A DNA stretch of 64,000 nt from Candidatus Kapaibacterium thiocyanatum (GTDB lineage: Bacteria > Bacteroidota > Ignavibacteria > Kapaibacteriales > Kapaibacteriaceae), in the NCBI GenBank assembly GCA_001899175.1, contig MKVH01000003.1, positions 20,690-84,689 of the forward strand, written 5' to 3'. Of this stretch, positions 8,067 through 11,972 are shown one piece after another. The position numbers and the translations under genes were made by a program. The first letter of the stretch is position 1. Every line of letters starts with the position of its first letter. The notes below the pieces were generated by a model. The model was not told the origin of the DNA, ran no database searches, and saw only the letters and a program-made list of their open reading frames with translations.

Positions 8067-9491
8067 TCATGACCAGAGGGCATCGGGATCCATACCGCCG
8101 AATGGCGGCGTAGATATCGGTCCTGTTTCACCGAGCATGTATGGACGGGCCTGACGCGGAATGACGACGCGTGTTCCGGGCAGGCGTTCGCGTGTGCAGA
8201 GCGCAAGCATGTCACATGCGTCAGGCTCGCCATGCATGATGACGAGGGTCGAGGGCCTGACGTCGGTGATCAATCCGAGCAGACCGTCGAGAGAGGCGTG
8301 TGCGGAGAAGCGCAGACGTTCGATCTGGCAACTGCGTCGGGTTTCCTTGCCGGCGAACGTGAATGCCTTGTCCGGTTGGGAGTGAAGGAGTTCGTATCCG
8401 GGCGACTCGGGATCCTGATATCCGATGAAGGCGATTCCGAAATTCGGCTTCCGCATGAAGGCCGTTGCCAGGGCGAAGGAAACGGTTCCCTTGTTCATCA
8501 TTCCGCTCGGTGCCACGACGATGGAAGGGTGCTTCATGTAGGGTCCGTTGAACAGCGTATCGAAGTGGATACGCTCCTGCGGAATGTCCGACACCTCGAA
8601 GCCGGGAACACGCATGGGATCGCTATAGCAGTACTGGTCGTAGATCTTGTTGATTCGTACACCCATGCCGACGGTGAAGATCGGAATGCGCGGAATCGAT
8701 CCTTTCTGCATCAACGAATGAAGGATTCCGAGAGTCTCCTGCGTCTTGCCGAGTGCGAATGAAGGAATGAGGACGGAGCCGTTGGCGTTGGTGATGCGGT
8801 TGATGAAGGCGGCCAGACGCTTGGCTTCGCCCTTGTAGTCGTTCGGACGATCGACGGCGGCATTCGTCGCCTCCGTGATCAGTACGTCTACATGCTTCCG
8901 CGGTACCCGTGCTTTCGGGATGATGGTCTGGTCGTCGAACTGGATGTCGCCCGTATGCATGATGCGCAGGCCACCGCATTCGAGGGTGATGCTCGCCGAT
9001 CCGAGAATATGTCCGGACCAATGATAGGTGATGGCTACATCCGAGCGTCCATCGTATCCACGCAGCAGGAAGGGTTCATCGTAGGGCACGGCTTCGAAGG
9101 CATGGCGCAGAAGCTCGATGGTATCGCGTTTGTAGAATTCCAGGGCCTGGTCGGAAAACCATGTGCGGATGTCCGTCTTGAGCAGCTTCGCTCCGTTGTG
9201 CAGCATGATATGGCTGAGATCGCGGGTCGCATGCGTCATCACGGTACGGAGATGCGGAAGACGTCGCATGACGTATGGCAGGGCTCCAAGATGATCCGTG
9301 TGGGCATGCGTGATCAGCAGGGCGTCGGTCGGCCGTGATGCGAGTGCATCGATATCCGGGAACGCTGCCGCCGTCCGGTCCTTCGGATGAAGGCCGGCAT
9401 CGATGATGATTCCCGTACCGTCGAGATTGAGGTAGCAGGAATTGGCACCGATTTCCTCGGCGCCACCGAGGAGAAGGAGTTCGGCGGTCAT
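8067..9491 (-). CDS. Beta-CASP metallo-beta-lactamase nuclease (CPSF/RNase J-like)
   Basis: This 474-residue cytoplasmic protein has the metallo-beta-lactamase signature THAHTDHLG (His62, His64, Asp66, His67) followed by later His/Asp metal ligands in HTGDIQFDD and the beta-CASP insertion, ending with the VIMHGEPDA block. The family contains RNA 3'-end processing endonucleases and 5' exonucleases, so a role in mRNA decay or processing is likely. Length fits CPSF73-like bacterial proteins better than full RNase J (about 550 aa). The start at 9491 was chosen because the metal-binding fold begins there and a promoter-like CATTTTTG lies 5 nt upstream. It is transcribed away from the CRISPR-like array. 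Confidence 0.85.
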   Translation of the reverse strand: MTAELLLLGGAEEIGANSCYLNLDGTGIIIDAGLHPKDRTAAAFPDIDALASRPTDALLITHAHTDHLGALPYVMRRLPHLRTVMTHATRDLSHIMLHNGAKLLKTDIRTWFSDQALEFYKRDTIELLRHAFEAVPYDEPFLLRGYDGRSDVAITYHWSGHILGSASITLECGGLRIMHTGDIQFDDQTIIPKARVPRKHVDVLITEATNAAVDRPNDYKGEAKRLAAFINRITNANGSVLIPSFALGKTQETLGILHSLMQKGSIPRIPIFTVGMGVRINKIYDQYCYSDPMRVPGFEVSDIPQERIHFDTLFNGPYMKHPSIVVAPSGMMNKGTVSFALATAFMRKPNFGIAFIGYQDPESPGYELLHSQPDKAFTFAGKETRRSCQIERLRFSAHASLDGLLGLITDVRPSTLVIMHGEPDACDMLALCTRERLPGTRVVIPRQARPYMLGETGPISTPPFGGMDPDALWS

Positions 9492-9496
9492 GGGTG

Positions 9497-9504
9497 CAAA
9501 AATG
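9497..9504 (-). promoter_or_regulatory. Near-match -7 promoter element
   Basis: On the minus strand CATTTTTG (one mismatch to TAnnTTTG) stands 5 nt upstream of the nuclease start codon. The position would give a leaderless or nearly leaderless mRNA. Confidence 0.4.
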
Positions 9505-9611
9505 CACACGGACCGGTATCCGGGGTAGAAATGTCGTAATGATCCCGTCCGTACCATCCGCGCCACGATGGGGCATGCCGCTCCGTCCGGAGGGTTACGG
9601 GCATGCACCTG

Positions 9612-10320
9612 TGGCCCATTCCTGCGTGTGCGGATGATACAAGACGATCGCACTGAACCTCCAGTTGTACGGCTCGCTCACGCCTACGGGGGTGATACGT
9701 ATGGCCTGCTTCCGGTGTTCCTCCAGTGCAGGTTCATCCTCGCGTGCATGAGACCATGATACGGTACGACCGGCGAAGGCCGGTTTCCTCGGTCCATCCC
9801 CCCCCCCCCCCATGGGCGGGTGGTACGAGCGTGGTGGGCAGCTCACGATCAATGACGTCGGTTCATCCCCGCGTGCGCAGGTGACAGATTCAGTTGCGCG
9901 GTGACGTCGATGAGCCGTTCGGTTCATCCCCGCGTGCGCGGGTGACGGAGTTTCGCCTCCTCCTCTTTCGTGCGCGTCGCCGGTTCATCCCCGCGTGCGC
10001 GGGTGACGGACACCGTATTTGTCATCGGTTGCCGAGAGGACCGGTTCATTTCCACGTGTGCAGGCGACAGGATGATCCACTGGTGCATATCCGTAGGCAG
10101 TGGCGGCATCCTCGGGTTCATTTCCGCATGCGCCCGTAATACGGCTGCTTCATGCTCTTGTGTCGGAAGGTAGGCGGATTATCCCTGCGTGCACGGTAGC
10201 ATCCGCCCGTATAGTCGCCGACGTGGCGCGGTTCATTCCCACATGCGCGGGCTGGGTCCTCGTCAACGGTATGCGACCTCGGGACGGAGATCCATTCCCG
10301 CATGCGCGGGCTGGGTACAT
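9612..10320. CRISPR. Degenerate orphan CRISPR-like array, type I-E-like repeats
   Basis: The best copies begin at 9859, 9920 and 9981 and contain GGTTCATCCCCGCGTGCG followed by CGGGTGAC, a GC-rich hairpin repeat like those of type I-E arrays. Starts 9859, 9920, 9981 and 10042 are exactly 61 nt apart, the type I-E repeat-plus-spacer period. Weaker copies begin near 9612, 9670, 9730, 9790, 10114, 10175, 10229 and 10288, with spacings of 54-72 nt. The outer copies have many substitutions; the one at 9790 has lost its centre to a run of 14 C. No cas gene is in the window. There are about 11-12 copies in all. It looks like a decaying, cas-less array, though a degenerate dispersed repeat cannot be ruled out. 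Confidence 0.6.
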
Positions 10321-10394
10321 CCTACAGTAGTGTTTCCTGCTCCGGTATCACGTAATCAGGCTTATGATCGTGCGGGTCCTTGTCGCCTTCGTCG

Positions 10395-10409
10395 GTTCCA
10401 TAATGGAAC
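10395..10409. promoter_or_regulatory. 15-bp perfect palindrome upstream of the mutase/copper genes
   Basis: GTTCCAT, A, ATGGAAC. It lies 130-140 bp upstream of the -7 element at 10538, in a 250-bp stretch (10321-10571) where I see no gene. It could be a regulator-binding site. It does not match copper-regulator operators I know. Confidence 0.25.
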
Positions 10410-10537
10410 GGAACCTGTATGCAGCAGTATTCAAATCGCCGGCGATCCTGTTTGTCCTGCATCGTCCTGTCATCCAGCGTCCAAATCCACTATCGCCCGT
10501 CAAACCTGTAGACGACCGCTGTTCTACCCCCCATCCG

Positions 10538-10545
10538 TAGCTTTG
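10538..10545 (+). promoter_or_regulatory. Bacteroidetes-type -7 promoter element
   Basis: TAGCTTTG is a perfect TAnnTTTG match, 26 nt before the ATG at 10572 and followed by GGAG as ribosome binding site. It probably drives the mutase activator-copZ-copA run. Confidence 0.6.
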
Positions 10546-10571
10546 CAGACTTGATCATCTGGAGAACAACC

Positions 10572-11972
10572 ATGCAGGCTCCGCAACCGTACAAACTCAA
10601 GCACAAGATCCGGATCGTGACGGCGGCGTCATTGTTCGATGGCCACGACGCAGCCATCAACGTGATGAGACGGATCATCCAGGCCACCGGTGCTGAAGTC
10701 ATCCATCTCGGACATAACAGATCCGTCGCCGAAGTGGTCGACTGTGCCATCCAGGAAGATGCTCAGGCGATAGCCATGACGTCGTATCAGGGTGGCCACG
10801 TCGAGTACTTCCAGTACATGTACGATCTGCTGAAGGAACGGGGCGCAGGACATATCCGCATCTTCGGTGGCGGAGGAGGTACGATTCTGCCGACGGAAAT
10901 CGAACACCTGCATGGCTATGGCATCACGAGGTTGTACTCTCCGGACGACGGTCGTTCCCTCGGCCTGCAGGGGATGATCAATGATCTGGTGGAGCGGTCG
11001 GACTACATTCCGCCCGATGTCTTCGGTGACGATCTCGAGGATGCTGTCTCGGCACGGAATCCTCTGGCGCTGGCCCAGGCCATCTCCTTCGCCGAGCGCG
11101 GTGCCTACGACAAGGTCGCCTTCGTCAAGGGTACGAAGCGCGCGCCGGTTCTCGGCATCACGGGTACGGGTGGCGCGGGCAAGTCGTCGCTCACCGATGA
11201 AATCGTACGACGCTTCCTCGAGGATTTCACCGACAAGACGATCGCCGTCGTCTCGGTCGATCCGTCGAAACGGAAGACGGGTGGGGCTCTGCTCGGCGAC
11301 CGTATCCGGATGAACGCCGTGAGCAATGGCCGCGTCTACATGCGTTCGTTCGCTACCCGCGAGGCCAACGTCGCGATGAACAAGAACGTCACCGATGCCA
11401 TCGACGTCCTGTCCTATGCAGGCTTCGATCTCATCATCGTGGAAACGGCCGGTATCGGCCAGAGCGATTCGCAGATCACGGACGTCGCCGATGTGTCGAT
11501 GTACGTGATGACGCCGGAATACGGTGCCGCGAGCCAGCTCGAGAAGATCGACATGATCGACTATGCAGACATCATCGCACTGAACAAGTTCGACAAGCGC
11601 GGTGCACTGGATGCCCTGCGTGACGTGAAGAAGCAATATCAGCGGAGCAGACAGTTGTTCAACCGCAAGCCGGACGAAATGCCGGTCTACGGTACGATCG
11701 CTTCGCAATTCAACGATCCCGGTGCGAATACGCTCTATCGCTCCCTCATCGACGCACTGGTGCACAAGTGCGGTCTCGACTGGGCGTCGACGTATACCGT
11801 CACCGACGAAATGAGCGAAAAGATCTACATCATCCCACCCGATCGCACGCGCTATCTGGCCGAAATCGTTGAAGAGAACCAGCGATACGACCGATATGCC
11901 GGGCAACAGGCCGATCTCGCTCGTCGGCTCTGGCGACTGCGTGGTGCGATTGACGAAATGAAAGGAACTTGA
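10572..11972 (+). CDS. B12-binding plus MeaB-type G-domain protein (N-terminal half of split IcmF)
   Basis: This 466-residue protein joins two parts. Residues 10-145 are a cobalamin-binding Rossmann domain with SLFDGHDAA (Asp23, His25; the lower-ligand motif) and a GGGGGT loop. Residues 190-460 are a MeaB/ArgK-type GTPase with P-loop GTGGAGKSS (about 198-206), ETAGIGQSD as switch II and NKFD for guanine. This order and these motifs match the N-terminal part of fused isobutyryl-CoA mutase IcmF, where the G domain loads and protects adenosylcobalamin. Full IcmF is about 1100 residues; here the mutase domain is a separate gene at 15835. GGAG precedes the ATG. The stop is 1 nt from copZ. Confidence 0.85.

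Follow-up and report, generated by a model that had tools for sequence, protein, structure and literature searches.

A decayed type I-E CRISPR array with a well-kept centre, probably secondary to a complete system in the same genome, in Candidatus Kapaibacterium thiocyanatum

Why does a CRISPR array stand here with no cas gene beside it, and why are its middle repeats so much better kept than those at either end? The locus lies in a 64,000-nt stretch of the genome of the uncultured Candidatus Kapaibacterium thiocyanatum (bases 20690–84689 of contig C3; hereafter the window, whose positions we use unless a contig is named), with the array at C3:30301–31005. A sequence-only reading of the window had proposed a type I-E-like array eroding after the loss of its cas genes, or else one kept for another role. 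We find the type and the decay to be right and the loss to be contradicted by the rest of the genome; the other role is neither borne out nor contradicted. In all likelihood, the array is a secondary, decayed one belonging to a type I-E system that retains its full set of genes in this genome.

Repeats, spacers and hairpins

The repeats that had been placed at 9612–10320 are real and their ends right: a 29-nt type I-E repeat is present 12 times at 9612–10316, with 11 spacers. The features considered are as follows.

8067–9491, minus strand: flanking gene for a metallo-beta-lactamase/Beta-Casp/RMMBL protein, 474 aa from ATG
9612–10316, minus strand: the decayed type I-E CRISPR array itself (12 repeats, 11 spacers), with its putative leader end at the higher coordinate
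9790–9818, minus strand: repeat copy ruined by a poly-C run
9859–10070, minus strand: kept central block, repeats 9859, 9920, 9981 and 10042, with an exact 61-nt period
9888–10041, minus strand: three 32-nt spacers, each between a good handle (upstream) and a good hairpin (downstream), putatively yielding crRNAs
10229–10316, minus strand: the two outermost repeats (10229 and 10288), with a common altered 5′ end, ACCCAG
10551–11972, plus strand: flanking gene for a protein with a B12-binding part and a MeaB-type GTPase

Copies start at 9612, 9670, 9730, 9790, 9859, 9920, 9981, 10042, 10114, 10175, 10229 and 10288. Starts 9859, 9920, 9981 and 10042 are spaced by exactly 61 nt, as the earlier reading had it, and repeats 9920 and 9981 have the same sequence; the remaining start-to-start gaps are 58, 60, 60, 69, 72, 61, 54 and 59 nt. 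The 27-nt core occurs three times at ≤3 mismatches, compared to zero occurrences in 100 shuffles. In an ungapped scan, the outer copies have 17–22 matching bases of 29, and the background in the rest of the window (125,768 positions, both strands) reaches a maximum of 20/29, with 57 positions at ≥17. Because the background attains their scores, the weakest copies (9670 and 9790, the latter with its internal poly-C run) are recognised mainly by how they fit the 61-nt rhythm. Regular, near-identical repeats and unrelated spacers, as expected of a CRISPR array, are seen here, with strict regularity in the four central copies only. Spacers shared between copies, which the sequence-only reading had named as a sign against it, are absent: no spacer is repeated within the array.

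The GC hairpin ascribed to the central repeats is present in central copies (–14.5, –14.5 and –9.7 kcal/mol). It is weak in most outer copies, with the exception of copy 10288, which keeps –13.3 kcal/mol. On the minus strand, the repeat ends in ATGAACCG, which we take to be the type I-E 5′ handle pattern, and for this reason the minus strand was taken as crRNA-sense. The window had no match in Rfam, and the frames overlapping the array (9595–9927, minus; 10189–10554, plus) had no Pfam hit. A promoter scan, covering the sigma-70 type, found no match at the array. Likewise, the 300 bases on the leader side show no similarity to those of the large array on contig C8 or of the repeat beside cas2 (both described below). 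The missing leader is weak evidence, however, because these two upstream stretches also fail to match each other.

A complete cas operon on the same contig

Neither of the two divergent genes that flank the array is a cas gene, a point that favours the idea of an array eroding after its own cas genes were lost. We ran the search for cas3 and cas8e that the sequence-only reading had suggested and found cas3 and cse1 within a complete type I-E operon (cas2, cas1, cas6e, cas5, cas7, cse2, cse1 and cas3) on the minus strand at C3:1199–10695. All eight Cas proteins are encoded in open frames and have Pfam hits over the cut-off. The array shares this contig and lies 19.6 kb beyond cas3. In addition, 68 copies of an almost identical repeat form an array with a regular 61-nt period on contig C8 (5660–9775); 45 of them have no mismatch over positions 3–29 and 21 have one (66/68 at 0–1). 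The central repeat of the window differs from the C8 repeat at one loop base and at the first two bases; the repeat beside cas2 (C3:1048), together with the 68-copy array, matches it except at the loop base and the repeat ends. The genome has all eight type I-E cas genes, and the array shares its repeat with the system that they encode. These data argue against erosion after cas loss, which we now consider very improbable; it would escape contradiction only if the operon seen today had taken the place of an older one that was lost. More generally, a window free of cas genes says nothing about the genome as a whole.

To what extent is the array shared with relatives? Among 22 other genomes of the family, 20 have the two flanking genes adjacent; of the other two, a contig end truncates one and the second lacks a neighbour match. 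No series of repeats was found in the 20 intergenic stretches (27–531 bases), and the array is specific to this lineage because these relatives keep the gene pair without it. A DNA search of 60 genomes, including this one, gave matches in four, and the other three match only the stretch of central repeats. The same array is thus not present in the relatives compared. Cas7e was found in two of 23 family genomes (this one included) and was not found in the one genus mate. By flanking protein, the nearest named relatives are mostly Candidatus Kapaibacterium and Ignavibacteria bins. As a separate observation, six relatives' intergenic stretches were checked for small genes, and all six carry a minus-strand frame of 67–107 aa, membrane-like by eye, in the place where this genome has the array (9492–10550); tblastn searches of the window with four of the six gave no meaningful hit.

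Uneven decay and what may account for it

Outer copies had been described as worn, and the counts bear this out. From 9612 upward, mismatches to the active repeat over positions 3–29 number 7, 10, 10, 12, 2, 1, 1, 5, 9, 9, 8 and 10, such that three or four contiguous middle repeats are much better kept than both flanks (outer copies, 7–12 mismatches; gaps of 54–72 nt). For 11 copies (poly-C copy excluded), these counts are over-dispersed relative to a binomial (P = 0.002); the corresponding value with the array's own central repeat as reference is 0.0002, although that reference favours the centre. Changes in the same 11 copies comprise 49 transitions and 29 transversions. Of the 76 changes counted in the eight decayed copies, 32 lie within the first six bases, a share that none of 2000 neutral simulation runs with indels reached. 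This crowding may reflect 5′ ends that were variable during the life of the array, or constraint on the stem and handle. The stem pairs of the decayed copies are paired in 30 of 40 cases, compared to a mean of 30.8 with arms shuffled, and we therefore reject the idea that the hairpin was maintained through compensatory change.

The farther apart two copies lie in the array, the less similar they are (Mantel r = 0.37, P = 0.009 when the poly-C copy is left out; r = 0.28, P = 0.028 for all 12). Taken by themselves, the eight leader-side copies show no significant effect of order (P = 0.17). The ACCCAG end common to 10229 and 10288 suggests, from its sequence, that an already altered repeat may have been copied at a late acquisition. 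Copy 10175 is out of line with a simple nested order.

Only the spacers at 9888–9919, 9949–9980 and 10010–10041, each of 32 nt, lie between a good upstream handle and a good downstream hairpin, while 8 of the 11 have a heavily altered repeat on one side or both. If the array is transcribed, Cas6e, acting in trans, could still produce crRNAs from the three central spacers at most. No target for these three spacers was found at ≤3 mismatches in 23 family genomes, this one included. The longest seed match in ∼84 kb of the genome's own contig has 11 specified bases, near chance by our own estimate, and hence neither set yields a target above chance. A seed-pattern search of viral contigs was also without match, but it tells nothing because two of two control spacers from the large array were equally matchless. 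The other eight spacers were covered within queries of the whole array, namely the DNA search of 60 genomes above and one against phages and plasmids. The latter gave no convincing match, with E values no better than 0.02 for phages and with the top plasmid hits lying mainly over the central repeats, and it is just as uninformative.

Work from 2020 by Shmakov and colleagues reportedly treats isolated CRISPR arrays as a class. Arrays that stand apart from cas genes have been described before (PMC5294841; PMC12174588, citing Shmakov et al. 2020), with isolation defined as a distance of >10 kb (PMC5294841). The window array resembles this class in its distance of >10 kb from the cas genes and in having a matching cas locus in the genome; it departs from it in its strong, uneven decay, which spared the middle copies most. 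Its 29-nt repeat, 32-nt central spacers, ATGAACCG handle and matching operon are those of type I-E, whereas no matching leader was found and most of its spacers lie beside a badly changed repeat. CreTA, where degenerate repeats have a host role (PMC9458426), offers another comparison. There, as here, degenerate repeats might still serve Cascade, but CreTA involves one or two ectopic repeats with a nearby partial target, and here there are 12 copies, ∼20 kb from the cas operon, and the three best spacers have no target that we could see.

We favour an ordinary remnant, an array that seems to have stopped growing and to be decaying now. It would once have stored spacers normally, 32 nt each between 29-nt repeats and with crRNAs on the minus strand; a working leader was then probably lost, ending spacer uptake; and the repeats would since have been altered by substitutions (mostly transitions), small length changes and the poly-C expansion. 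Behind this account stand direct observations, namely the array anatomy, the near-identity of its repeat to that of the large array, the complete cas operon found on its contig and the unevenness of the decay. One caveat here is that uniform decay fits poorly, given that the kept copies are contiguous in the middle and that changes crowd at the 5′ end. The kept centre is the one unexplained feature, and it could reflect later insertions inside the array, an exchange of repeats or continued use.

A tentative proposal, which would add to our reading of a decaying secondary array rather than oppose it, is that the central block formed later than the copies on either side. It could have arisen by Cas1–Cas2 insertion at a remaining good repeat after the leader end had decayed, or by recombination with another array. 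Mismatch counts of 1–2 in copies 9859–9981 and 5 in 10042, versus 7–12 on both sides, are consistent with this, as is the drop in similarity with distance, although the latter is not significant on the leader side alone. Internal (ectopic) insertion is documented for type II-A arrays (PMC7999890; PMC8047081). However, none of the papers cited here gave us a type I-E example, and the central loop base, being unlike that of the large array, argues against simple replacement from there. Quite improbable, in our judgement, is selection on the central crRNAs, whether for immunity or for regulation of host genes as by CreA-like RNAs. It would suit the presence of exactly three normal-length spacers between good handles and good hairpins, of Cas6e and Cascade genes in the genome, and of a stem, loop and handle less changed than the 5′ end. 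Against it are the lack of targets at ≤3 mismatches in 23 family genomes and the near-chance seed match, the uncompensated stems of the decayed copies, and the absence of the array from all 20 relatives compared at this place. The broader proposition that the centre of a leaderless type I-E array was kept usable as its ends decayed, whether through continued internal insertion or because three crRNAs with a role in the host were under selection, strikes us as unlikely. A preserved middle with decay on both sides poses a modest puzzle as to the ageing of arrays; were internal insertion demonstrated for type I-E, this would bear on models that read array order as time.

Other copies of the repeat

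Dispersal of the repeat over many loci was another sign named beforehand as one that would speak against an array. Outside the window, nearly all copies belong to the regular C8 array, with about nine stray copies beyond the two arrays, and we therefore reject the repeat as a dispersed element. Stray copies or short, decayed groups occur at C8:34–121, C8:19905, C19:32841 and C25:232971–233729, the last near the right end of C25. The ends of C8 and C25 have a short sequence in common, which suggests a contig break caused by repeats. Beside cas2, a single good repeat (C3:1048–1074) is followed by unrelated sequence to the contig end, and the 5.6 kb ahead of the 68-copy array (C8:1–5661) hold a BRO-N gene and, for the most part, frames of no known kind. 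It may be that an element interrupted the main array just behind its first repeat, although the contig ends preclude proof. Within the C8 array, one spacer is present twice, after repeats 7130 and 7619, and the spacers after 6032 and 7497 are alike, which suggests either that the same target or related ones were sampled more than once or that spacers were duplicated.
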